DNA of 64,000 bases from Mycolicibacterium tokaiense (lineage in GTDB: Bacteria > Actinomycetota > Actinomycetes > Mycobacteriales > Mycobacteriaceae). Every line of letters starts with the position of its first letter. Position 1 is the first letter of the stretch. Positions 49,569 through 63,085 of this stretch are shown piece by piece. Made by a program: the position numbers and the translations under genes. The stretch is from the NCBI RefSeq assembly GCF_010725885.1, contig NZ_AP022600.1, positions 6,200,001-6,264,000 of the forward strand, written 5' to 3'. A model generated the notes under the pieces. That model did no database searches and was not told where the DNA came from. It worked only from the letters and a program-made list of their open reading frames with translations.

Positions 49569-50969
49569 CTACTTGGTGTCGCCGTCGGGCTCGACCGACG
49601 ATTCCGCCTCGTCCTCGGCCTCTTCGGCCTCGGCATCGGCCTCGTCGGCGCCGGATCCGAAGAACTCCGAGGTGTCGATCACAGCACCGCTGGAATCGGT
49701 GATGGTGGCCGCCTCCACGACAGCGGCGACCGTCAGGCCGCGGCGCACGTCGGCGAACATCGCGGGCAGCTGGTTGTTCTGCTGCAGCACCTGCAGCAGC
49801 TGCTGAGGCTCGATGCCGTACTGGCGCGACATCAGCACCAGCCGCTCGGTCAGGTCGTTCTGACCCACCTGGATGTCGAGGTCGTCGGCGATGGCGTCCA
49901 TCAGCAGCTGGGTCTTGACGGCCTTCTCCGCGTTGGTGCGGGCCTCGGCGTCGAATTCCTCGCGGCTGCTGCCCTGCTCGGCCAACTGCTCGGCGAAACG
50001 CTCTTCGCTGTGGTCGAGGCCGTGGATGGCCTGGTGCACGGTCTCGTCGACCTGCGCCTGCACGATCTTCTCCGGCAGCGCCACCTCGACCTGCTCCAGC
50101 AGGGTCTCCAGGGTCTTGTCCCGGATGCTCTCGGCCTGCTGGATGCGCTTGTAGCGCTCGACCTGCTCGGACAGGTTGGCCTTCAGCTCGTCGATGGTGT
50201 CGAACTCGCTGGCCAGCTGGGCGAACTCGTCGTCGGGCTCGGGCAGCTCGCGCTCCTTGACCGACCCGACGGTGACGGTGACCTCGGCCTCCTGGCCGGC
50301 GTGCTCACCGGCGGCCAGGGTGGTGGTGAAGACCTTGGTCTCGCCCGCCTTGAGACCGATGATCGCCTCGTCCAGGCCCTCGATCAGCTGGCCGGAGCCG
50401 ATCTCGTGGGACAGGCCCTCGGTCTTGGCGTCGGGCACGTCCTGGCCGTCGACGGTGGCCGAGAGGTCGATGGAGACGAAGTCGCCCTCCTGGGCCGGAC
50501 GGTCCACCCCCGTGAGGGTGCCGAACCGCGCGCGCAGGTTCTGCAGTTCCTTGTCGATGTCCTCGTCACTGATCTCGATGGGATCGACCTCGACCTTGAG
50601 CGCGCTCAGGTCGGGCAGCGTGATCTCGGGGCGGACGTCCACCTCGGCGGTGAACACCAGCTCCTCGCCGTCCTCGATCTTGGTGACCTCGATCTCGGGC
50701 TGCCCCAGCGGCTTGACGTCGGTGGTGGTGACGGCCTCGCTGTAGCGGGCCGGCAGTGCGTCGTTGACCACCTGCTCCAGCACGGCGCCGCGACCGATGC
50801 GGGCCTCGAGCAGCTTGGCCGGGGCCTTGCCCGGGCGGAAGCCGGGCAGGCGGACCTGCTTGGCCAGCTCCTTGTATGCGCGGTCGAAGTCCGGTTTCAG
50901 TTCTTCGAAGGGCACCTCCGTGGTGATCCGCACCCGGGTGGGGCTCAACTGCTCGACGGTGCTCTTCAC
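49569..50969 (-). CDS. tig: Trigger factor (ribosome-associated chaperone)
   Basis: 466 aa, the length of the M. tuberculosis protein. The ribosome-binding signature is in [19 protein letters not shown] (about residues 40-58), the FKBP-type PPIase domain covers about 155-240 ([27 protein letters not shown]), and an acidic C-terminal tail rich in Asp/Glu/Ala closes it. It folds nascent chains and has prolyl isomerase activity. GTG 50969 has GAGGAG upstream; the longer frame would run into tRNA-Pro. Confidence 0.95.
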
Positions 50970-51040
50970 TGGTACTCCTCGAATCACTTTCGATGGTCTG
51001 TCCATCGCCTGGGGCGATGTTCGGTCGGTGGTCGTGCTGG

Positions 51041-51114
51041 TCGGGGTGACAGGATTTGAACCTGCGGCCTTCCGCTCCCAAAGCGGATGCGCTACCAAGC
51101 TGCGCTACACCCCG
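51041..51114 (-). tRNA. tRNA-Pro (anticodon TGG)
   Basis: 74-nt cloverleaf on the minus strand. The acceptor CGGGGTG pairs with CACCCCG, the anticodon stem TCCGC/GCGGA closes the loop TTTGGGA with anticodon TGG, and the T arm contains GGTTCAAATCC. CCA is not encoded. It lies just upstream of tig. Confidence 0.95.
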
Positions 51115-51576: not shown

Positions 51577-52986
51577 ATGGCAACAACACATCCGCGTCGC
51601 ACCACCGCCGCAGCCACCGCGGGCCTGGCCCTGGCCGGCCTGGGCGCGCTGGCGTTCACCGCGGCACTGCAACCGGGTGCGGCCACCGTCGACGTGGCGC
51701 TGACCACCTCGGAGTCCAGCCTCAACTACCTGCTGGACGGCAACGGGCACGCACTCGGCATGGCGGCCTTCACCAGTTCCTCGTTCACCATGGGAACGGC
51801 CATCGGCGACGGCGGCTGGCTGATCGGCAACGGCATCGATGCTGCGGCCGACTGCACCGGCACCGCCTGCAACGGAGGCAACGGCGGCGTGCTGTGGGGC
51901 AACGGCGGAAACGGCGCCAACGGCGGGCACGGCGGCGATGGCGGTTTCCTGTTCGGCAACGGCGGCGACGGCGGCACTGGCATGCAGGCGGTGTACGCCG
52001 AGGACGGCACGCTGGTGTCCGCGGCCACCGCGGGCGGGCGCGGCGGGAACGGCGGCTGGGTGATCGGCAACGGCGGAGACGGCGGCAACGGCGCCGAGGC
52101 AACCTACGACGTCACCACGGACACGCGCACCTCCCAGGCCACGAGGGGCGGCAACGGCGGACGCGGCGGACTGTTGTCCGGCGACGGCGGCAACGGCGGC
52201 ATCGGCGGTGATGACGACAACCTGCTCGGCGCGGACGCGCCTCCTGGGCTGGCGGACGCCTTCGGCGCGGCGGGCGGCAACGGCGGACGCGGTGGATGGG
52301 TGTTCGGCGACGGGGGTGACGGCGGCACCGGCGGCCGCGGCATCGGCAACGGCGGCAACGGCACCGGCGGTGTCGGCGGCGAAGGTGGCGACACCACGTT
52401 CGGCGAGGCCGGCAAGGGCGGCACCGGCGGCTTCGGCGCCGCCGAAGAGTCCCCGGGCACCACGGCCACCGGCGGTACCGGGGGTGCGGGAGGTTACGCC
52501 GTGGTCGGCGACGGCGGTGACGGCGGCACCGGAGGTGGCGCCAACAACTGGGACGACAGCGGAGACGAGACCTCTATCTCGATCGGCGGCACGGGCGGCA
52601 AGGGCGGCAACTCGTCGTGGGGTGGCACCGGTGGCACCGGCGGCCGGGGCGGTGACAGCGACGGCAACAGCACCACCAGCATCGGCGGCCAGGGCGGCCA
52701 GGGCGGCCGCGGCGGCGTCCTGGCCGGCAACGGGGGCGGTGGCGGCCGCGGCGGCGACGGCAGCTCCCAGAACAACGGCGACACCGTCGGCGGCAGCGGC
52801 GGCTTCGGCGGAAACGGGGGTGCCGTGGGCGGCGACGGCGGCAACGGCGGCGACGGCGGCAACGCCTCGACCGGCCCCGGCGGCGACGCCGACGGCGGCA
52901 AGGGCGGCTCCGGCGGCACCGGTGGCGTCGGCGGCAGCTCGGGTGGGCCCGGCACCGACGGCACCTCCAACGGCGGCGCCGGCTAG
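51577..52986 (+). CDS. Exported PGRS-type glycine-rich protein without PE domain (paralogue 1)
   Basis: 469 aa. A Sec-type signal peptide (about residues 1-35, TAGLALAGLGALAFTAAL) replaces the PE domain expected in PE_PGRS proteins. Then come a 45-residue Ser/Thr-rich segment and a GRPLI-like linker WLIGNGIDAAADC-TGTAC with two cysteines, followed by about 370 residues of GGxGGx repeats with interspersed Asn, Asp and Thr. It is a clear paralogue of the protein at 61625, sharing the linker, NGGNGGVLWGNGGNGANGG and the VYxxxxGxLxSAA interruption. Probably a cell-wall or surface protein; function unknown. GGGGAACT precedes ATG 51577. Confidence 0.85.
   Translation: MATTHPRRTTAAATAGLALAGLGALAFTAALQPGAATVDVALTTSESSLNYLLDGNGHALGMAAFTSSSFTMGTAIGDGGWLIGNGIDAAADCTGTACNGGNGGVLWGNGGNGANGGHGGDGGFLFGNGGDGGTGMQAVYAEDGTLVSAATAGGRGGNGGWVIGNGGDGGNGAEATYDVTTDTRTSQATRGGNGGRGGLLSGDGGNGGIGGDDDNLLGADAPPGLADAFGAAGGNGGRGGWVFGDGGDGGTGGRGIGNGGNGTGGVGGEGGDTTFGEAGKGGTGGFGAAEESPGTTATGGTGGAGGYAVVGDGGDGGTGGGANNWDDSGDETSISIGGTGGKGGNSSWGGTGGTGGRGGDSDGNSTTSIGGQGGQGGRGGVLAGNGGGGGRGGDGSSQNNGDTVGGSGGFGGNGGAVGGDGGNGGDGGNASTGPGGDADGGKGGSGGTGGVGGSSGGPGTDGTSNGGAG
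51880..52984 (+). repeat. PGRS GGCGGC-type codon repeat tract
   Basis: Irregular tandem repeats of GGCGGCAAC, GGCGGCGAC and GGCGGCACC units, encoding Gly-Gly-Asn/Asp/Thr. Such tracts are prone to slippage and recombination and match the repeat class seen in PE_PGRS genes. Confidence 0.9.
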
Positions 52987-53166
52987 CCCCGAAGGGGTTG
53001 CCAGACAACAGCATTCATCGTTCGAGGGCCATCACAGCCCCGGCGGCGCGCGCCCTGACATCACCAGCGCATCCCGTGGCCGTCTCGATCACGTAACGAA
53101 ACGTGTCGGGGCTGTGGTGGCACGATCCGTTGCGGTACGCTGCCCCGCTTGGTTACAGTCCTGACC

Positions 53167-53838
53167 GTGGGACGCCATTCTCTACCGACGACGCGGCGCA
53201 GGCCGTCCATGGTCGTCGCCGCCGTGGCCGTCCCCGCCGCCCTGCTCTTCATCGCCAGGGGCGACGTAGGCCCGGTGCCAGTCGAGGTCCAGGCGGCCCC
53301 CGTGGTGGACCAGATCGAACCGAGCCCCGACCAGACCGCCGCCCTGTGCTGCACAGAGTTCGTGGCCGTCGCCCCCATGGGCTTCGCGGGCGGCAACCTC
53401 ACCTACACGGCCGACCAGAACGCGTCCGCCTCGCGAGGGTTGCGCACCGTGGAACGCACCCTGCCCGCCGGCGTCGCACCCGAGCGCGGCCTGCAGGTCC
53501 GGACCATCCTGACCGCCCGCAGCATCAGCGCAGTGTTCCCGGAGATCCAGCAGATCGGCGGCGTCAGGTCCGATGCCCTGCGCTGGCATCCCGACGGTCT
53601 GGCGCTCGACGTGATGATCGACAACCCCAACTCCGCGGCGGGCATCGAGCTGGGCAATCAGATCGTGGCGTACGTCCTCAAACATGCCGATCGGTTCGGC
53701 ATCCAGGACGCCATCTGGCGCGGCGTCTACTACACCCCGAGCGGAGCCCAGCGTGGCGGCTACGGCCATTACGACCACGTGCACATCACCACCACCGGCG
53801 GGGGCTACCCCAGCGGCGGCGAGATCTACTACCGCTGA
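53167..53838 (+). CDS. Exported VldE/ARB_07466-like C-terminal domain protein
   Basis: 223 aa. An N-terminal hydrophobic segment (about residues 16-32, MVVAAVAVPAALLFIA) acts as signal or anchor. The C-terminal domain contains RSDALRWHPDGLALDVMID and YGHYDHVHI, the HxxGxAxD and DHVH pattern of M15-peptidase-like proteins in actinobacteria. It may bind or cut peptidoglycan (inference). A CC pair occurs in ALCCTEF. TACAGT lies 7 nt before GTG 53167, consistent with a leaderless message. Confidence 0.78.
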   Translation: MGRHSLPTTRRRPSMVVAAVAVPAALLFIARGDVGPVPVEVQAAPVVDQIEPSPDQTAALCCTEFVAVAPMGFAGGNLTYTADQNASASRGLRTVERTLPAGVAPERGLQVRTILTARSISAVFPEIQQIGGVRSDALRWHPDGLALDVMIDNPNSAAGIELGNQIVAYVLKHADRFGIQDAIWRGVYYTPSGAQRGGYGHYDHVHITTTGGGYPSGGEIYYR

Positions 53839-53947
53839 GCCGGCTGCGCCAGTCCTCTCGGCCACTCTAATTTGCGAATGCCGTCAATTGCGGCGCTGAT
53901 CGGCGGTACTGTCGGCCCACATTCCGTCGACTGGCAAAGAGGTCAAG

Positions 53948-56410
53948 ATGGGCGCTGCAAAATACGTGGGGCGAGTGGGCGGACTCGCGGTGGCCTTGGG
54001 CGTCGGAGCCGCCATCATGGTGGGCGCGGGCGCCGCGAGCGCGGACACCGAGACCGGTTCCCCCGGCACCTCTGCCTCCGAATCCCACTCCACCCCCGCG
54101 GAACGCGACTCGGATGCCAAGCAGGACAACAAGGTTGACAGCAAGCCTGCGGAACGTACCGAGGGCGACGACGCCGATACCGAGAGCGAGGACACCCCTG
54201 CGGCAGCGCCGCGCTCGAGCAGCGTCAGCTCGCGGGACGACGACGACTCCGACGAACCCACCGAGAGCGCACCCGAGGACGAGGCAACCGCGACCTCCGA
54301 GGAAGACGAAGATACGGCAAAGGACGATGAGACGCCGGAGGCCGTCGGCGCCCAGAGCGTGTCAGCCGCCGACGACAGCTCCGCACGCGACGAGCCCGAA
54401 CAGTCGGCTGCCGACGCCGCGGACGACCTCGATCCCGTGGTGCCCTACGCCCCGGACGTCGCGCTCGAGGACGGTGTCCTCACCGGCACCAACACCGCCC
54501 CCGCGCCACGGCCGGTGACCTATACGGTGGTGCGCGGTCCCAGCGGGGGCGGCAAGGTCAGCCTGGATTCCTCCGACGGCGACTTCACGTTCCTGCCCTA
54601 CCTGTCGCCGTCGCGTCCGGCCGGCCAGGAGCGGTTTTCGGTTCTGGTCGGTGAGCAGACCCGGTTCACCCAGGCCATCGAGAAGATCCCGGTGGTGGGG
54701 ACACTCGCCCCCCGCATCATCGTGGTGCTGCAGCAGGTGCCGATCGTCAAGGACGTGCTCTCCCCGCTGATCGGTCGTGCGCAGGTGTACCGCGTCGTCG
54801 TCGACGTCGCGCCCTACGTCGGCGACGACGCGGCGCCCATCGCGTTCACCACCAAGATCACGTCCTTCGACGGCATCCCGATCAGCGTGAACTTCTTCCC
54901 GGCCGGGGGCCTGGAGTTCGGCGAGGACGCCCCGACCATCCTCAACGGACCCAGCCTCGCCACCGCCGGCTACACCAACCTGCAGCAGGCCAGCACCGTT
55001 GCCGGCCTGGTGCCCGGGGTGTCGCAGATGCGGGCCGCCGGCTACAACGTCATCACCTGGGACCCGCGCGGCGAGTTCGCCTCGGGTGGCCTGATGCACC
55101 TGGACTCTGAATTGTTCGAGGCCCGCGACGTCTCGGCCATCATCGACTGGGCCAGCACTCAGGCGGGTGTGCGCAACGAGGCCACGGGCGATCCCCTGGT
55201 CGGCATGGTCGGCGGCTCCTACGGCGGCGGCATCCAACTCACCTCGGCCGGGACCGATGACCGCATCGACGCCATCGCACCGGGCATCGCGTGGAATTCG
55301 CTCAACACCGCGCTGTATCCGGACAACACGTTCAAGACGGCGTGGGCGTCGCTGCTGGCGCTGTCGCTGGTGGTCACCGGCGCGCGCCCGGACCCCCAGA
55401 TCTACGCCGGCATCCTCACCGGCCTGCTCACCGGGTTCCTGACGCCGGGTCAACAACGGTTCCTCGCCCGCAACAGCCCCGACACCGTGGTCGGGAACAT
55501 CACCGCACCCACGCTGTTCCTGCAGGGCACCGTCGACGGGCTGTTCGTCCTGCAACAGGCGCTGGACAACGCCGCACAGCTCGGCGACGACGTCCCGGTG
55601 CGGATGATCTGGTACTGCGGCGGCCACGGTTACTGCCTGAACCTGGACGAGCAGCAGAGCGCCGATCAGTACGGCTACCTCACCAGTCAGACGCTGGCCT
55701 GGATGGACACCTACGTCATGAACAAGGGCCAGGACGACCCCACGCCGGGCCCGACGTTCATGTGGGTGGATCAGAACGGCGACTGGTTCGCCGCCGACGA
55801 CCTCCCCCTGCCGGATTCGGGCTTCTTCGGTTCCCGGGTGATCGAGGCGTCCGGTGACGGCGGTCTGCTGCCGGTGGTGCCTCTGCTCGGCGGGTCCGGG
55901 CCGCAGAACCAGGCACCGTTCCCGCTGTCGCTGCCCTCGGCCGCCGAGTCCCGGTACGCCCTCGAGGTCGAGATCGCCAGCCAGGGCACCGCGCAGTCGC
56001 CGGTACACGTCGTCGGCGCACCCACGCTGACGATGACGTACTCCGGTCTGGGTACCAGCCGCGCCGTCTATGCCCAACTGGTGGACGACAAGACCGGCCT
56101 GGTGGTCGGCAACCTGGTCACGCCGATCCCGGTGACACTCGACGGTCGTCAGCGCACCGTGGAGATCGCGATGGAGAACATCGCCTACACCATGGCCGAC
56201 CCTCAGGACCGGCTGCGGCTGCAGATCGTGGACTCCGCGGTGGCCTACGAGGACTTCACGTCTTTCGGTCTCGTGAACATCTCGGATGTCGCGATCTCCC
56301 TGCCCACGGCAGCCCAGGCGGTGCCGACCACGCTGCCGTATGTGCCGATTCCGCCGAGCAGCGCCGGGTCCGGGATCGAGGCCATGCTCACCGGTGCGTC
56401 AGCGCGCTGA
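53948..56410 (+). CDS. Secreted CocE/X-Pro-dipeptidyl-peptidase-type alpha/beta hydrolase
   Basis: 820 aa. Signal peptide (about 1-33, ending AASADT), then a low-complexity Asp/Glu/Ser/Thr-rich region (about 34-165), a cadherin/Ig-like segment (ALEDGVLTGTN; TVVRGPSGGGKVSLDSSDG), an alpha/beta-hydrolase core with Ser424 in MVGGSYGGGIQL, Asp in GTVDGLF and His in GGHGYC, and a C-terminal beta-sandwich like X-Pro dipeptidyl peptidases. Likely a surface ester- or peptide-hydrolase; substrate unknown. AGAGG precedes the ATG. It is followed after 15 bp by an Ntn hydrolase gene. Confidence 0.83.
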   Translation: MGAAKYVGRVGGLAVALGVGAAIMVGAGAASADTETGSPGTSASESHSTPAERDSDAKQDNKVDSKPAERTEGDDADTESEDTPAAAPRSSSVSSRDDDDSDEPTESAPEDEATATSEEDEDTAKDDETPEAVGAQSVSAADDSSARDEPEQSAADAADDLDPVVPYAPDVALEDGVLTGTNTAPAPRPVTYTVVRGPSGGGKVSLDSSDGDFTFLPYLSPSRPAGQERFSVLVGEQTRFTQAIEKIPVVGTLAPRIIVVLQQVPIVKDVLSPLIGRAQVYRVVVDVAPYVGDDAAPIAFTTKITSFDGIPISVNFFPAGGLEFGEDAPTILNGPSLATAGYTNLQQASTVAGLVPGVSQMRAAGYNVITWDPRGEFASGGLMHLDSELFEARDVSAIIDWASTQAGVRNEATGDPLVGMVGGSYGGGIQLTSAGTDDRIDAIAPGIAWNSLNTALYPDNTFKTAWASLLALSLVVTGARPDPQIYAGILTGLLTGFLTPGQQRFLARNSPDTVVGNITAPTLFLQGTVDGLFVLQQALDNAAQLGDDVPVRMIWYCGGHGYCLNLDEQQSADQYGYLTSQTLAWMDTYVMNKGQDDPTPGPTFMWVDQNGDWFAADDLPLPDSGFFGSRVIEASGDGGLLPVVPLLGGSGPQNQAPFPLSLPSAAESRYALEVEIASQGTAQSPVHVVGAPTLTMTYSGLGTSRAVYAQLVDDKTGLVVGNLVTPIPVTLDGRQRTVEIAMENIAYTMADPQDRLRLQIVDSAVAYEDFTSFGLVNISDVAISLPTAAQAVPTTLPYVPIPPSSAGSGIEAMLTGASAR

Positions 56411-56425
56411 GTCGAGGGCAGCGAC

Positions 56426-57394
56426 GTGTGCACCCGGATTCTGTGGAACACCAACGATCTGGCCGTGCTGACCGCTCGGACCATGGACTGGCCGGAGTCC
56501 ACCCAGCCGTTGCTGGTCGCGATGCCACGCGGCCGTGCGCGCAACGGCGGGTTACTCGGTGACCAGGTGGTCGACGAGAACCCGTTGACGTGGACCAGCC
56601 GGTACGGGAGCTTGGTCACCACCATCTACGGCATCGGCACCATCGACGGCTTCAACGAGCGGGGGCTGGCCGCCCACGGGCTCTACCTGGAGGCCACCGA
56701 CTTCGGTGATCGCGACGGTGCCAAACCCGCTGTGCACAGCGGACTCTGGGTGCAGTATCTGCTGGACCAGGCCGGGACGGTTTCCGAGGCGCTGGCCCTG
56801 ATGGATGCCATCGCGGTGGTGCTGGTGAACGTGCGCGGCTTCGACGCCAACATCCACGTCGCCCTCGAGGATGCCGGGGGCGACTCCGCGATCATCGAAT
56901 TGGCCGACGGCGTGCCGATGGTGCACCACGGCCGCGAATTCACGCTGATGACCAACGACCCCACCTACGACGAGCAGCTCCAGCTGCTCGCCGCGCACGA
57001 CTTCTCCCATCCCACCGGCGTGACGCCGTTGCCGGGCAACGTCAACGCGGTCGACCGGTTTCAGCGCGCGGCCTATTTCTCGGCCCTGCTGCCGGAACCG
57101 GCCGGCGAACGGCAGGCGGTGGCCGCGGTGATGGCCGTGGCCCGCAACGTGTCAGTGCCGTTCGGGGCGCCCTACGAGGATTTCGGGGTGTACAACACCG
57201 AATACCGGACCGTGTGCGACCTGACCAACCGCACCTACTACTTCGAGCTGACCACCAGCCCGAGTGTGCTGTGGGCGCAACTGGACGGCCTCGACATCGG
57301 CGCCGGAGTGCCACCGCACGGGGTGGATCCGTACGACGAGACCCTGGCCGGTGACGTGACCTCCCGGTTCGCGCCTGTCGACATCCGGTTCTGA
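56426..57394 (+). CDS. Choloylglycine/penicillin V acylase-family linear amide hydrolase
   Basis: 322 aa opening M-C-T-R-I, so Cys2 is the autocatalytically exposed nucleophile. TARTMDWPEST, YGIGTIDGFNERGLAAHGLYLE and MTNDPTYDEQ (containing the conserved Asn-Asp) are typical of this Ntn family, which hydrolyses N-acyl bonds of bile salts, penicillin V or acyl-homoserine lactones. GTG 56426 is fixed by Cys2. No signal peptide, unlike many relatives. Probably cotranscribed with the CocE-type gene. Confidence 0.87.
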   Translation: MCTRILWNTNDLAVLTARTMDWPESTQPLLVAMPRGRARNGGLLGDQVVDENPLTWTSRYGSLVTTIYGIGTIDGFNERGLAAHGLYLEATDFGDRDGAKPAVHSGLWVQYLLDQAGTVSEALALMDAIAVVLVNVRGFDANIHVALEDAGGDSAIIELADGVPMVHHGREFTLMTNDPTYDEQLQLLAAHDFSHPTGVTPLPGNVNAVDRFQRAAYFSALLPEPAGERQAVAAVMAVARNVSVPFGAPYEDFGVYNTEYRTVCDLTNRTYYFELTTSPSVLWAQLDGLDIGAGVPPHGVDPYDETLAGDVTSRFAPVDIRF

Positions 57395-57435
57395 CGCCCA
57401 GGGCGCACTCGGTTTCTGTGAGTACCCTGGACGCC

Positions 57436-58212
57436 ATGGACGGCTTTCTGCTGCTACTCATCCTCGTCGTTGTCGCGGCCATCGGCCTGGCCATGTGGAG
57501 CTCGGCGCGTAACAGCGGCCGGCGCAACGAGGCGTCGCTGGCCGACGCCAAGGCCGACGCCCGGCGGGTCATCGACCGTCTCGGCGGACAGGTGATCAAT
57601 CTCAGCGGCACCGATGACGCCTCCAAGCAGGCCCTCGCCGATGCCTCGGAGCGTTTCACCGCGGCCGGCTCGCAGATCGAGCAGGCCACCACCGCCAAGC
57701 AGGCGCTGCTGGCCAAGGAGAGCGCCCTCGAGGGGCTGTACTACGTGCGTGCGGCCCGCGTGGCGATGGGCATGGATCCGGGTCCGGAGCTGGAGTTGCT
57801 GCAGGGGCAGCGCACCGCGGGGCAGGTCACCGAGGACCGCCGTGTGCAGTTCGAGGGCCGCGAGATCGAAGCCTCCCCCGGCCCCTCGCAGCGCACCCCG
57901 AACTACTACCCCGGTGGCAATGTGGCCGGGCGTCCGGTGCCCGCGGGTTGGTACTCCGAGCCGTGGTGGAAGCCGGCCCTGGTGGCGGGCGCCTGGGGCG
58001 TGGGCTCGATGCTGCTGTTCAGCACGCTGTTCTCCGGAATGGCCGGCACGGGATACGAAGAGGGCTTCGCCCAGGGATACGACCAGGGCTTCGGCGACGG
58101 TGGCGACGGCGGCGGCGACTTCGGTGGCGACGGCGGCGGAGATTTCGGCGGCGGCGACTGGGGTGGTGGCGATTTCGGCGGCGGCGATTTCGGCGGCGAC
58201 TTCGGTTTCTGA
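57436..58212 (+). CDS. Membrane protein with coiled-coil and Gly/Asp/Phe-rich tail
   Basis: 258 aa. One N-terminal transmembrane segment (about 3-25, FLLLLILVVVAAIGLAMW), a helical region with many Ala/Lys/Glu (LADAKADARRVIDRL; QIEQATTAKQALLAKES) and a second hydrophobic segment (about 180-198). The tail of about 36 residues is built from DFGGGD/DWGGGD repeats. The architecture resembles DUF1542-type membrane proteins of mycobacteria with no known role. ATG 57436 is preceded at 7 nt by TACCCT (leaderless); GTG 57418 is a less likely start. Confidence 0.75.
   Translation: MDGFLLLLILVVVAAIGLAMWSSARNSGRRNEASLADAKADARRVIDRLGGQVINLSGTDDASKQALADASERFTAAGSQIEQATTAKQALLAKESALEGLYYVRAARVAMGMDPGPELELLQGQRTAGQVTEDRRVQFEGREIEASPGPSQRTPNYYPGGNVAGRPVPAGWYSEPWWKPALVAGAWGVGSMLLFSTLFSGMAGTGYEEGFAQGYDQGFGDGGDGGGDFGGDGGGDFGGGDWGGGDFGGGDFGGDFGF
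58098..58209 (+). repeat. GGCGGCGAC/TTC repeat encoding Gly-Asp-Phe tail
   Basis: Short tandem GGCGGCGATTTC-type units in the 3' end of the preceding gene, encoding the DFGGGD tail. Likely length-variable between strains. Confidence 0.75.
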
Positions 58213-58223
58213 GGCGCGTCCGG

Positions 58224-59912
58224 CTAGAAGCGGCTCTCCAAGCGCGCGGTGACGCCGGCCTCCTGGAGGTCCAGGCGCTCGAGCATGGCCCGCACCGCCT
58301 CGTCGTCGATGCGGCCCTCGTCGCGTTCGCCGATCAGTGCGGCGCGCTGCGCCGTCAGGACAGCGCGGTAGAGCGCAGCGAACGTCTCGGCGCGCAGCGT
58401 GTGCGCCTCCGGATCGGGCATCTCGTCAGCGTCCTGCGACTGGCGGGCGATGGTGGTTCGAATCTCGGCGAGGACCCGCGGGTCAAGTCCCTCGGGTGGG
58501 TGGGCGCGGAATTCGGCCAACACCGCGTCCGCTGCCCGGTGCACCACCTCCTCGGCTTTGGCGGTCTCGGCGTAGGCGTACCGATTCTCTTCGTCCGAGG
58601 TGAGGTCGAGCCGGCTGATCAGCGACGGTAGCGTCCACCCCTGCAGGAGCAGGGTGCCGATGGCGGTGACGAAGGCGATGGCCTGGATGGTGGCCCGTTC
58701 CGGGAACGGTTCGCCGGCCGCGGTGGTCACCGGAATGGCCGCTGCGGCAGCCAGAGTCACGACGCCGCGCATCCCGGTCCACGACACCACCACGTTCTCC
58801 TGCCACGTGAGTCTGCGGTTGTCGATCCGTGACCTCCACCGAGCGGGGGCTCGGTCGCGTTTGCGGGTGCCCAGCGCACCGCGGCCGCCCTGCTCGGGAA
58901 CCGGCACGCTCAAACGCCTTTCGACGTGGCGGGACAGCACGCCCCGGCCGAACATCGCGAACACCGACAGCGGCCGGATCGCCAGTACCACCGCCAGCAC
59001 GATCAGCGAGGCGATCGCCACCTCACCCAACGATTCGTGCGCCTCACGCAGGTCCTCGAGGACGAATCTCAGGTGCAGCCCGATGTAGGCGAAGACAAAT
59101 GCCTCCAGCAGGACATCCACGGAGTTCCAGACGTAGCGCTCCTGCAGGCGGGTCTGGTAGCCGGCGTCGAGAGTGCCGCTGCCGACCACGAATCCGGCCA
59201 CCACCACCGCCAGGACACCGGAGGCGTGGAAGTGTTCGGCGGCGATGAACGCTGCGAACGGAACCACCAGCCCCTGCACGGTCTCCAATCCGGGATTCGC
59301 CAGCCGCCGACGGATCCACAGCGTCACGTAGCCCAGGGCGGCGCCGACCACCGGACCCACCACGGCGCTGTAACCGAACAGCAGCAGCGGGTTCTCGATG
59401 AAGGTGTGGGTACCCGCCACCTGAGCCACCGCGATGGAGAACAAGGACAACGCGGCCGCATCGTTGATCAGGCTCTCCCCCGTCAAGATCGCCATCACCC
59501 GCTTGGGCAGGCCGAGTTTGCGTCCCACAGCCACCGCGGTCACCGCATCCGGTGGGGCAACGATGGCGCCGAGGATCAGCGCGGTCCCGAAGGTCAACGG
59601 CACCACCACCAACCACGATGACACTGCCGCCACTGTGAACGCGGTGACCACCACCAGGGCCACACCCAGACCCAGGATCGGTTTGATGTTGCGCAGAAAA
59701 GTCGGGAACGAGAAGTCCAGCGCCGCCGAATACAACAGCGGTGGCAGCACCACCGTCAGCAGGATGTGCGAATCGAGTTCGGGCGCTTGAAATCCCGGTA
59801 TGAACGACACCGCACCGCCGATCACGACGATGATCAGGGCCGGCTCGAGGCCGCGCCGGTGCGCGACGGCGGTGACGACAATGGCGCCGACGACAACCAG
59901 GATGAGTTCCAC
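58224..59912 (-). CDS. CPA1-family Na+/H+ antiporter
   Basis: 562 aa with about 11-12 transmembrane helices over the first 430 residues. It shows the NhaP/YjcE motifs LPPLLYSAALDFSF, GAIVAPPDAVTAVAVGRKL and TGESLINDAAALSLFSIA (the ND pair is the transport site), and VVSWTGMRGVVTLAAAAAIP. A soluble tail of about 100 residues contains ERLDLQEAG. It exchanges Na+ or K+ for protons. GTG 59912. Convergent with the preceding gene. Confidence 0.9.
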   Translation of the reverse strand: MELILVVVGAIVVTAVAHRRGLEPALIIVVIGGAVSFIPGFQAPELDSHILLTVVLPPLLYSAALDFSFPTFLRNIKPILGLGVALVVVTAFTVAAVSSWLVVVPLTFGTALILGAIVAPPDAVTAVAVGRKLGLPKRVMAILTGESLINDAAALSLFSIAVAQVAGTHTFIENPLLLFGYSAVVGPVVGAALGYVTLWIRRRLANPGLETVQGLVVPFAAFIAAEHFHASGVLAVVVAGFVVGSGTLDAGYQTRLQERYVWNSVDVLLEAFVFAYIGLHLRFVLEDLREAHESLGEVAIASLIVLAVVLAIRPLSVFAMFGRGVLSRHVERRLSVPVPEQGGRGALGTRKRDRAPARWRSRIDNRRLTWQENVVVSWTGMRGVVTLAAAAAIPVTTAAGEPFPERATIQAIAFVTAIGTLLLQGWTLPSLISRLDLTSDEENRYAYAETAKAEEVVHRAADAVLAEFRAHPPEGLDPRVLAEIRTTIARQSQDADEMPDPEAHTLRAETFAALYRAVLTAQRAALIGERDEGRIDDEAVRAMLERLDLQEAGVTARLESRF

Positions 59913-59956
59913 CCGCAGATTGTCGCGTCAAACCCGGGAGTTCGCTGGCTACGCGG

Positions 59957-60763
59957 TCAGGCCTGACAGGTCGGGCACCAGAACAGGTTGCGCCCTTCGA
60001 GTTCCACCGTCTTGACCGGCGTCGCGCAGATGCGGCACGGCTCCAGGGCCCGGCGGTAGACGTAGGTTCGGGGCCGCCCGGTCCGGTACGACGGTGCGCC
60101 GTGATCATCCTCGAGGCGGACCACCACGATCTTGCCCCGGCGTAGACCCACTTTCATCAGCTCGACGAGATCGGCCCACATGCCCGCGAACTCGTCAGAG
60201 GTGATGTCCGTTCCCGGGCGGAAGGGGTTGACGCGGTGCCGGAAGAGCAACTCACTGCGGTAGACGTTGCCCACCCCGGCGAGCACCGATTGATCCATCA
60301 ACAGCGCCGCAATGGGTCTGCGAGACTTCGTGATTCGTTGCCAGGCAGGGGCCGGGTCGGCGTTCTTGCGCAACGGATCGGGGCCGAGCTTGGCCACCAC
60401 CTCGGTGACCTCGGCTTCGTCGATCACCTCACAGACCGTCGGGCCGCGCAGATCGGTGCCGTACTCGGCACCGATCATCCGCATCCGCACCTGCCCCACC
60501 GGCTCCGGGATGGCGTCGACGTCGGCAGCGGGGAATTCGTTGAACGAGCCGTAGAGGCCGAGGTGCACGTGCACCACCCGCCCGCCGTCGTAGTGGTGAA
60601 ACAGATGCTTACCCCAGGCCTCGGACGTGCGCAGCACCCGACCGTCCACCACGGCTGCGCCGTCGGCGAATCGGCCCTGCGGGCTGCCGACGCGCACCGG
60701 CGCGCGACCGTATCGGCGTTGGTGCAGGCGGGCCAGCCGGTGCAGGGTGTGCCCTTCGGGCAT
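59957..60763 (-). CDS. nei: Fpg/Nei-family DNA glycosylase (Nei1)
   Basis: 268 aa. N-terminal PEGHT (Pro1 catalytic after Met removal, Glu2), SEAWGKHLFHHY, the helix-two-turns-helix ALLMDQSVLAGVGNVYRSELL, and a C-terminal zinc finger with CRIC...CPTC. It excises oxidised pyrimidines and cuts at abasic sites. High similarity over its length to M. tuberculosis Nei1, and it follows rpiB 3 bp downstream, as in that species. Confidence 0.92.
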   Translation of the reverse strand: MPEGHTLHRLARLHQRRYGRAPVRVGSPQGRFADGAAVVDGRVLRTSEAWGKHLFHHYDGGRVVHVHLGLYGSFNEFPAADVDAIPEPVGQVRMRMIGAEYGTDLRGPTVCEVIDEAEVTEVVAKLGPDPLRKNADPAPAWQRITKSRRPIAALLMDQSVLAGVGNVYRSELLFRHRVNPFRPGTDITSDEFAGMWADLVELMKVGLRRGKIVVVRLEDDHGAPSYRTGRPRTYVYRRALEPCRICATPVKTVELEGRNLFWCPTCQA

Positions 60764-60766
60764 GTG

Positions 60767-61246
60767 TTACTCCGCGGCGCCTGGCACGGGCGGTGCCTGG
60801 TGAGTGCGCTCGTACTCGGACAAGATGTCGATGCGGCGCTGATGACGGGGCGCCTCCGACCACGGAGTGCTCAGGAAGGCGTCGACGATGGCGAGCGCCT
60901 CGTCGGTGGTGTGCATGCGACCGCCGATGCCGACCAGTTGAGCATTGTTGTGCTGGCGGGCCAGCGAGGCGGTTTCGGTGCTCCAAGCCAGGGCACACCG
61001 TGCACCCGGCACCTTGTTCGCCGCGATCTGTTCACCGTTGCCCGATCCGCCGATCACGATTCCCAAGCTGCCCGGGTCCGCGACCGTCCGCTCGGCCGCC
61101 GCGATGCAGAACGCGGGATAGTCGTCCTCGGCGTCATAGCTGTATGCACCGCAGTCCACGGGGTCGTGGCCGGCGGCGGTCAGGTGATCGAAGATGGCCT
61201 GCTTGAGTTCGTATCCGGCGTGGTCGGCACCGAGGTAAACGCGCAT
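60767..61246 (-). CDS. rpiB: Ribose-5-phosphate isomerase B
   Basis: 159-aa RpiB/LacAB-family isomerase. MRVYLGADHAGYELK at the start, GIVIGGSGNGEQIAANKVPG in the active site (Glu of SGNGE as base in mycobacterial RpiB) and QHNNAQLVGIGGRM are present. It interconverts ribose 5-phosphate and ribulose 5-phosphate. ATG 61246 is preceded at 7 nt by TAGGGT on the minus strand, fitting a leaderless mRNA; a longer frame to 61543 has no support. Operon with nei. Confidence 0.94.
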   Translation of the reverse strand: MRVYLGADHAGYELKQAIFDHLTAAGHDPVDCGAYSYDAEDDYPAFCIAAAERTVADPGSLGIVIGGSGNGEQIAANKVPGARCALAWSTETASLARQHNNAQLVGIGGRMHTTDEALAIVDAFLSTPWSEAPRHQRRIDILSEYERTHQAPPVPGAAE

Positions 61247-61624
61247 GGCGGTAACCCTACTTTCCTGCGGCACGATCGCCGCCGCCACTGTCAGACGTTC
61301 ATTGACAGCAAACAGATGCGCGCACTTGACGCAGCCACCTTCAGCCTTCTCGATACAGATGAATTCACAGCTCTGAGCATTTAGGACACGTCGCCGTGGC
61401 GATAAAAACAATTGACGACATCGTTGAACCGCAGCAAGAAGCGCCAATACAGCCGAACCATGCTCGCGTGTAGTTGCATACGCAACGATAGGTAAGGCTT
61501 GCCTAGGGGTAGGTCTTGACGGGTGAACCCGCAAACCCAACAATCAGGGCGGCCGTTCACAGGAATCGCCAAGAAACCACATATGCCTGCGCTCGCAGGC
61601 CGTCATCCCGATGGGGGTTGGTAC
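61247..61624. other. Divergent region between rpiB and PGRS-type gene (378 bp)
   Basis: Besides the rpiB -10 (61254-61259, minus strand), it contains an IdeR-type iron box (61488-61506) and a promoter TTGACG (61516-61521) with AACAAT (61539-61544) at 17-bp spacing, directed to the PGRS-type gene. No coding sequence was identified in the rest. Confidence 0.55.
61488..61506 (+). promoter_or_regulatory. Candidate IdeR iron box
   Basis: ATAGGTAAGGCTTGCCTAG matches the mycobacterial IdeR consensus at 14 of 19 positions and keeps its dyad (AGGTAAG-G-CTTGCCT). It ends 9 bp before a TTGACG -35 element of the PGRS-type gene, so IdeR could either repress or activate it. Confidence 0.55.
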
Positions 61625-63085
61625 ATGTACGTCAAGTCCGGACGCCACAGGGCGACGCACCGTTCCGTGCACAAGCACGTGGCTACGGGTGTTGCCGGCG
61701 CGGCAATGGTGGGCCTCGGCGCCCTGGTGGCCGCCGGCGCCGCGTCGGAGGAACCGTCGGTGTCTGCAGCCGTGCACACCGAGGTGACGCTGGTCAACGA
61801 CGAGACTCCGATCAACCCGTTCCTGTACACGGAGGGAGGCCCGGCCACCGCGTCGGCCAATGTCTACACCGGCGCGACGGTCATCGGTGAGGGCGGTTTC
61901 CTCATCGGCAACGGCGTCGACGCCGCCGCCAACTGCTCCGGCAGCGCCTGCAACGGCGGCAACGGCGGACTGCTGTGGGGCAACGGCGGCGCCGGCGCCA
62001 ACGGTGGCAACGGCGGCAACGCCGGGTACTTCGGCGGCAGTGGCGGCGACGGCGGTGCCGGTGTCGATGCGGTCTACGACCCGACGACGGGTGCGCTGAT
62101 CTCGGCCGCCTCCAACGGCGGCAACGGAGGCAGCGCCGGCCTGTTCACCGGCGACGGCGGCAATGGCGGCGCCGGCGGCGCCGACACGAACGTCAACGCG
62201 ACCGGCGATGTCGACGCTGTGGGCGGTGCCGGCGGGCGCGGCGGCAACGGCGCGACCTTCAGCCCGAGCAACGCGGGTGACGGCGGCGCCGGCGGCAGCG
62301 CCAGCTCGCTGTTCGGCAATGCCACCGGCGGCAACGGCGGCATCGGTGGCGGCGCGACCATCGGCATCCCCTTCTCGCAAGACGACACCACCACCTACGG
62401 CGCGGGCGCCGGCGGTGCCGGCGGTTCGGCCAGCGTGGGCGACGCCACCACCAACACCGGTGCCGCGACCCAGACCGCCACCGGCGGCAACGGCGGCATG
62501 GCCGGCAAGGGCACCCTGTCAGGGGGCAGCACTCCGGAGGTCCTGGGACGCGGCGGCGGCAGTGGCGGTTCGGCGACCGCCGGAGGCGACGCCAAGGCTG
62601 TCGGCGGTTCCGGTGGCGACGGCGGCGAGCGCCTCATCGGCCGTGGCACCAACGGCGGCAACGGCGGCAAGGCCACCTCGCAGTCCGGCTCGGCGACCGG
62701 CGGCGCTGCGGGCAGCGGCGGCGACTCCATCGCCACCGGACTCGGCGGCCGCGGCGGTCGCGGCGGCGCTGCCGAGTCGACCGGCGGCAACACCATCGGT
62801 GGCCGTGGCGGCAACGGCGGTAACGGCGGTGCCATCCAGGGCATCGGCGGCCAGGGCATGAGCGGCGGCGCGGCCACCGGCGGCACCTCGCGCGGCGGCA
62901 ACGGTGGCACGGGCGGCAGCGGCGGCCTGAACGCCAACGGCGGCAATGGCGGCAGCGGCGGCAGCGCCAACCCGGACGCAGGCAAGGCCGGCACCGGTGG
63001 CAACGGCGGCGCCGGCGGCCAGGGCGGCCTCGGCGGCAGCACCGGCAGCCAGGGCAACGACGGCAGCGACAACGCCAGCCCGTAG
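61625..63085 (+). CDS. Exported PGRS-type glycine-rich protein without PE domain (paralogue 2)
   Basis: 486 aa. A basic His/Arg-rich N terminus and a hydrophobic core (about residues 21-42, TGVAGAAMVGLGALVAAGAA) form the export signal. Next come a segment of about 45 residues, the Cys-containing linker FLIGNGVDAAANC-SGSAC, and a repeat domain of about 380 residues (NGGNGGLLWGNGGAGANGG and onwards). It is paralogous to the protein at 51577 but with different N-terminal residues. An IdeR-type box and a sigma-A-like promoter lie upstream. The promoter position (start point near 61551) argues for ATG 61625 over GTG 61523. Function unknown; surface location is likely. Confidence 0.85.
   Translation: MYVKSGRHRATHRSVHKHVATGVAGAAMVGLGALVAAGAASEEPSVSAAVHTEVTLVNDETPINPFLYTEGGPATASANVYTGATVIGEGGFLIGNGVDAAANCSGSACNGGNGGLLWGNGGAGANGGNGGNAGYFGGSGGDGGAGVDAVYDPTTGALISAASNGGNGGSAGLFTGDGGNGGAGGADTNVNATGDVDAVGGAGGRGGNGATFSPSNAGDGGAGGSASSLFGNATGGNGGIGGGATIGIPFSQDDTTTYGAGAGGAGGSASVGDATTNTGAATQTATGGNGGMAGKGTLSGGSTPEVLGRGGGSGGSATAGGDAKAVGGSGGDGGERLIGRGTNGGNGGKATSQSGSATGGAAGSGGDSIATGLGGRGGRGGAAESTGGNTIGGRGGNGGNGGAIQGIGGQGMSGGAATGGTSRGGNGGTGGSGGLNANGGNGGSGGSANPDAGKAGTGGNGGAGGQGGLGGSTGSQGNDGSDNASP
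61950..63083 (+). repeat. PGRS GGCGGC-type codon repeat tract (second copy)
   Basis: Irregular tandem GGCGGCAACGGCGGC-type units encoding Gly-Gly-x, homologous in style to the tract at 51.9-53.0 kb. The two tracts are possible substrates for homologous recombination. Confidence 0.88.

Follow-up and report, generated by a model that had tools for sequence, protein, structure and literature searches.

PE_PGRS proteins join a PE domain (PF00934) to a PGRS repeat domain (PF21526). They are usually treated as a mark of ESX-5-bearing, largely pathogenic mycobacteria, and the PGRS part is discussed mainly as a host-interaction device. According to the parts of the study covered here, the fast growers analysed by Gey van Pittius et al. 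(2006, PMC1660551) lacked ESX-5 and PE_PGRS genes. PGRS proteins have been reported in M. smegmatis and Mycolicibacterium; the review concerned, in the parts covered, calls them PE_PGRS and says that the PE part needs confirmation (PMC11939664). Here we describe two genes in a 64,000-nucleotide stretch of Mycolicibacterium tokaiense (NZ_AP022600.1, positions 6,200,001 to 6,264,000; hereafter the window, whose numbering is used throughout). Both encode PGRS proteins that lack a PE domain and carry a signal-like N-terminal segment and a cap with a Cys-x4-Cys pair (the Cys linker). We consider it probable that they belong to a large PE-independent PGRS family, whose members would start with a signal segment, cross the membrane without ESX-5, close a cap disulfide and form a polyglycine-II (PGII) sandwich in or on the outer envelope.

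The window proteins share with PE_PGRS proteins the PGRS repeats, a predicted PGII sandwich (published for PE_PGRS), a homologous start of the PGRS domain (LIGNG ... GGLLxGNGG) and a similar density of hydrophobic turns near that start. The reviewed M. smegmatis and Mycolicibacterium proteins (RS04235, RS25935 and one of M. neworleansense; PMC11939664) resemble them in occurring outside PE_PGRS-rich species and in a sail-like predicted fold. However, the review files these as PE_PGRS and leaves the N-terminus open, and the parts covered mention neither cysteines nor a signal peptide. Compared by description only, they likely belong to the Cys-linker class. Our literature search, whose coverage took in few subscription journals, found no published PE-less, cysteine-capped PGRS class.

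Two PGRS proteins without a PE domain

Two open frames on the forward strand, at 51577-52986 (protein 1, 469 residues) and 61523-63085 (520 residues), carry the linker as the initial annotation had described. The second protein (protein 2) very likely starts at the ATG at 61625 (MYVKSGRH; 61625-63085, 486 residues) and not at 61523, since its relative L031 opens with MYVKPGRH and a GGGGG stretch lies just upstream of 61625. The protein 1 gene was supported by homologues in other genomes.

Both proteins show the same order: a basic start is followed by a single hydrophobic core, a spacer modelled as disordered, the Cys linker, and about 390 residues of PGRS repeats. The signal-peptide-like N-terminus of protein 1 (51577-51681; core AGLALAGLGALAF; Kyte-Doolittle 15-mer 2.07) was modelled as disordered and without a hairpin, and that of protein 2 lies at 61625-61759 (core GVAGAAMVGLGALVAAG; hydropathy 2.11). 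The linker occupies residues 76-101 of protein 1 (IGDGGWLIGNGIDAAADCTGTACNGG; 51802-51879), with Cys93 at 51853-51855 and Cys98 at 51868-51870, and residues 87-112 of protein 2 (61883-61960), with Cys104 at 61934-61936 and Cys109 at 61949-61951; both were placed by the pattern and alignment A1, and that of protein 1 also by hhalign to PE_PGRS junctions. The linker sequences are LIGNGIDAAADCTGTACNGGNGGVLWGNGG and LIGNGVDAAANCSGSACNGGNGGLLWGNGG, respectively. Spacer and linker of the two proteins align with each other (BLASTP, 47% over 70 residues, E 5e-10). The PGRS domains, each a predicted PGII sandwich, span 51787-52983 (residues 71-469) and 61868-63082.

The Cys linker is not a chance pattern, because the DNA pattern for C-x-G-x-A-C-N-G-G matched seven times in the genome (one contig of 6,328,149 bases in all whole-genome searches) versus none for its reverse, and was found in 86 of 396 same-genus genomes versus three matches of the reversed pattern (G297, G552, G556). 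A profile search added an eighth gene, L168, with the shortened pair CTAPC. Three further PE-less PGRS proteins (L010, L011 and L015, near 677.7 kb, 338.2 kb and 4036.7 kb) have a plain, PE_PGRS-like cap without the cysteine pair. The initial annotation had spoken of a pair; two such proteins do lie in the window, but they do not form an operon pair: about 8.5 kb of unrelated genes separates them, and elsewhere the genome has no fewer than nine other PE-less PGRS genes. L001, L002, L010 and L011 exceed the Pfam PGRS cut-off as whole proteins.

As a side observation, L001 and L002 are tandem genes at about 712-716 kb (within L167, 708000-719000). Their proteins have long N-terminal GDGxxAxV-type repeats, which may form a beta-solenoid, and also carry an additional FCRG..C pair. 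Similar architectures recur elsewhere, e.g., in L029, L038, L041, L042, L056, L104 and L106.

The predicted lack of a PE domain was borne out. Pfam found none in the two window proteins, in the 11 PE-less PGRS proteins of the genome, or in the 42 rows of alignment A2, most of which begin 95 residues before the linker. (A2 and the 29-row A4 held the window's own sequences plus a choice from 79 references, most members with long N-termini being left out.) The initial annotation had named a hidden PE-like helical hairpin among the findings that would speak against it; neither structure model contains one. A six-frame PF00934 search of the genome returned only two PE domains. The first adjoins a PPE gene, as is the case in ESX-3, the second lies in a frame of 117 residues, and neither is fused to or next to a PGRS. 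No PE match was strong (best 3.9e-20), in a search that did not cover the ESX-5 components themselves. These scans, searches and models reject a PE domain hidden upstream. It is barely credible that these are PE_PGRS genes that have lost their PE part or carry it in a misread upstream frame, even though the 2025 review, in the parts covered, casts doubt on how the N-termini of M. smegmatis PGRS genes are annotated (PMC11939664): the only two PE domains adjoin no PGRS, and signal-like N-termini are common to members across the genus and, by eye, in two other genera.

The N-termini were surveyed in a set of 80 members (one frame per locus with unlike linkers, both window proteins included; frames running off a locus end were cut there). 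A hydrophobic core with a net-positive n-region was present in 75 of the 80, and an AxA-type triplet followed within 37 residues in 78. All 11 PE-less PGRS proteins of the genome have a hydrophobic core (at least 1.64) ahead of the PGRS part.

Relation of the linker to the PE_PGRS junction

The linker had been likened to the junction at which the PGRS domain of PE_PGRS proteins begins. Neither window protein contains the literal GRPLI (AIGDGGWLIGNG, VIGEGGFLIGNG), and RP precedes the linker in 37 of 80 members, but the parallel itself holds by profile. Alignment A1 (33 linkers from strict pattern matches, in which the cysteines are invariant by construction) aligned with A3 (24 PE_PGRS junctions) in hhalign at 98.3% and E 1.2e-14; the gaps, 3 and 6 residues long, would be whole PGII triplets. 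Of 80 frames, 69 had their A3 profile peak at the Cys linker, compared with 5 when shuffled, and of 24 PE_PGRS proteins, 23 had their A1 profile peak at the GRPLI junction, compared with 2 when shuffled. These peak positions reject a composition artefact and support homology between the linker and the PE_PGRS junction, as judged from sequence.

In an unrooted tree of 107 rows and 60 columns, with 52 forks open, the cysteine rows grouped together (91/88). The three PE-less rows without cysteines (L010, L011, L015) fell with the PE_PGRS junctions, weakly (41/71), and one PE_PGRS row (L135) fell outside. The phylogeny that the initial annotation had proposed thus groups the Cys class, but so short, weak and unrooted a tree does not carry a descent of PE_PGRS from that class. 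A different history may be offered tentatively, at somewhat less than even chance. PGRS would be older than and independent of PE and ESX-5, with Sec-exported, disulfide-capped or plain-capped forms in ancestors without ESX-5. Once ESX-5 appeared, a plain-cap, Cys-less PGRS protein would have exchanged its signal peptide for PE, and the Cys class would then have faded from the lineages concerned.

Cysteines, proposed export and predicted fold

Starting at the first linker cysteine, the cysteine count was two in 75 of the 80 proteins and four in the other five; among 24 PE_PGRS proteins, counted from GRPLI to the end of the frame or locus, 22 had none and two had one. Counted after the hydrophobic core, the total was even in 79 of 80 (42 with two, 35 with four and two with six). 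In L005, the one odd case, another cysteine lies shortly before the counting cut, and cleavage at ALA-APP would make the total even. A second close pair lies upstream in 35 members, in several unlike sequence types, some recurring among kin, and the extra cysteines form close pairs with spacings of 5, 7, 8 and 11. Even cysteine counts in varied pairs are typical of disulfide bonding, which takes place outside the cytoplasm. We infer that the linker Cys-x4-Cys closes a cap disulfide. The initial annotation had allowed for either a disulfide or a link between wall proteins; parity strengthens the former, and the close pairing of the cysteines speaks more for a bond within the protein than for a wall cross-link. 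It is rather improbable that the cysteines bind metal or cross-link to other wall proteins and form no cap disulfide. Cys-x4-Cys pairs are capable of metal binding, but the close spacing of the extra cysteines and the even totals argue against both roles, and a lone wall-linking cysteine would make totals odd.

The N-terminal features above suggest Sec export of the PE-less PGRS proteins and a repeat module independent of the PE/ESX-5 route. Alternatively, the hydrophobic segment could stay uncleaved as a signal anchor, so that the protein remains tethered to the inner membrane and its PGRS sandwich is periplasmic, not surface-exposed. Two of the 80 members lack a nearby AxA-type triplet, and Ala-rich sequence often contains such triplets; the triplet in the other 78, together with the disordered spacer after the core in both models, makes an anchor unlikely, although it deserves to be kept in view. 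Export by the twin-arginine translocation (Tat) pathway or by a remaining ESX system is improbable. The PE beside a PPE gene and the second short PE are retained in the genome, and some n-regions contain RR, but no Tat consensus is visible by eye in the two window proteins, Pfam reports neither PE nor PPE nor WXG-type domains, and the models lack a helical hairpin.

Both PGRS domains were modelled as a PGII sandwich, and the ten-residue blocks holding the cysteine pairs had mean predicted local distance difference test (pLDDT) values of 87 and 86. The best fold match was a springtail antifreeze bundle, with a good match over 125 residues. Ice or surface binding of the kind known from springtail and snow flea antifreeze proteins (7jjv, 2pne) is nonetheless very improbable. 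Those are small arthropod ice-binding proteins of 81-126 residues with no evidence of common descent or function; the window domains are about three times larger and bear hydrophobic turns, and a common fold shows no function. PE_PGRS33 was modelled on the same snow flea antifreeze protein (sfAFP) fold, and its authors, in the parts covered, see different surfaces (PMC7830552). In a viral fold library, two matches under 0.001 had template modelling scores (TM-scores) of about 0.1 and were taken as meaningless. A PDB sequence search gave no match for protein 1. In NCBIfam, protein 1 had a single match, far below the cut-off, and protein 2 had none. The Pfam PGRS model matched protein 1 at residues 83-138, from the model's first position.

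Together, these data suggest the following route. The protein would be made with a Sec-type signal segment and would need neither a PE domain nor ESX-5 to cross the inner membrane. After oxidation outside the cytoplasm, the Cys-x4-Cys at the PGRS start would close a small disulfide loop, as cysteine parity and spacing indicate, and this loop, in place of the GRPLI lock, would cap a flat, predicted PGII sandwich at its N-terminal end. In PE_PGRS, the first PGII turn would be locked by GRPLI packing, whereas the Cys class would have a covalent loop one triplet longer. The sandwich would probably sit in or on the outer envelope through hydrophobic GG-LL-x-GN-GG turns like those of PE_PGRS, and may serve as a structural or adhesive surface layer.

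Several results weigh against this reading. The A3 profile peaked away from the Cys linker in 11 of 80 frames. As to the proposed signal peptide in place of PE, 12 of 24 PE_PGRS N-termini reach the same hydrophobicity score, which alone is not specific. The parity p-value of 1e-18 is overstated, as the members are not independent. The best PDB match in Foldseek had a low TM-score over the whole model (TMq 0.15), and PF21526 reached 18.5 of 27 bits for protein 1, below its cut-off, with no match for protein 2, which has few hydrophobic turns beyond its first 100 residues.

Distribution and genomic surroundings

Many mycobacteria without PE_PGRS machinery carry this PE-less, Cys-linker PGRS family. 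A readable Cys-linker PGRS frame was present in 23 of 25 loci from the same-genus search (L084-L108, except L099 and L105). Among the matches listed, all 39 named loci were Mycolicibacterium or Mycobacterium, mostly from what we take, by name, to be fast growers, and 33 had a readable frame (all but L051, L073, L075, L076, L081 and L082).

The class occurs almost only in genomes without strong PE domains. A strong PE was defined as a best match under 1e-24, a cut chosen after the table was seen, with at most 12 candidates scored per genome; 156 of the 396 same-genus genomes had one. The Cys linker was found in one of these 156 (G436), compared with 85 of the other 240 (Fisher p 1e-20, kinship ignored). 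This near exclusion may mostly restate one split of the genus. PE_PGRS proteins were seen in all four strong-PE genomes looked at (G085, G267, G452, G483). In G436, there were eight PE matches, and no frame holding them is a PGRS protein; weak matches lie in non-PGRS frames of 460-609 residues (L115-L118), perhaps other ESX substrates. The PE family model also matches an Escherichia coli control genome above its cut-off.

When genomes were drawn more widely, from the family, 18 of 401 matched. One (L018) was dropped as a chance match in a frame with 11 GG pairs, and three belong to two other genera. Profile searches there matched five of eight genomes in the first genus and one of nine in the second, each with one or two PE domains. 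The strict cysteine motif occurred in L152 and L153 (first genus) and L156 (second), with starts that look signal-like by eye. At the order level, 13 of 150 genomes matched the profile, several weakly and some PE-rich, as junction homology would predict. A linker-profile match in a further genus (L165, genus g9, genome G038; E 7e-16) lies in a PGRS frame that looks broken.

With a large PE-less class elsewhere in mycobacteria, the PGRS sandwich may serve the envelope in some basic way for which PE and ESX-5 are not required. The class offers a non-pathogen system for studying PGRS folding and placement, and the origin of PE_PGRS becomes a testable question of domain replacement.

In the window, trigger factor (tig, 49569-51098, reverse strand, by Pfam) is divergent from protein 1, with clpP and clpX homologues beyond it, and an rpiB-type sugar-phosphate isomerase (60767-61543, reverse strand, PF02502) is divergent from protein 2. 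Between the two PGRS genes lie genes for an S15 peptidase, a choloylglycine-hydrolase type, a sodium/proton exchanger and an Fpg-type glycosylase. Unfiltered tblastn with the protein 2 N-terminus recovered its nearest relatives (L031, L037, L045, L046, L047 and L064; flanks of 3 kb in four and 1.5 kb in two), while the same search with the window's neighbours found no convincing rpiB in the loci searched (best E 0.15), and a conserved neighbourhood was rejected. A common upstream DNA element was likewise rejected, as 11-base words in the 350 bases upstream of ten PGRS genes gave scattered pairwise matches only.

In G415 (C44, 202261 and 202408), G561 (C1, 126405 and 126552) and G708 (C49, 140036 and 140135), two same-strand Cys-linker patterns are separated by 99 to 147 bases and may mark proteins with a doubled cap. 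A shortened first repeat after the Cys linker (GAGAAGKAAVYAADG or close) was observed in four protein 2 relatives (L037, L045, L046 and L064), and only there among the linkers printed.

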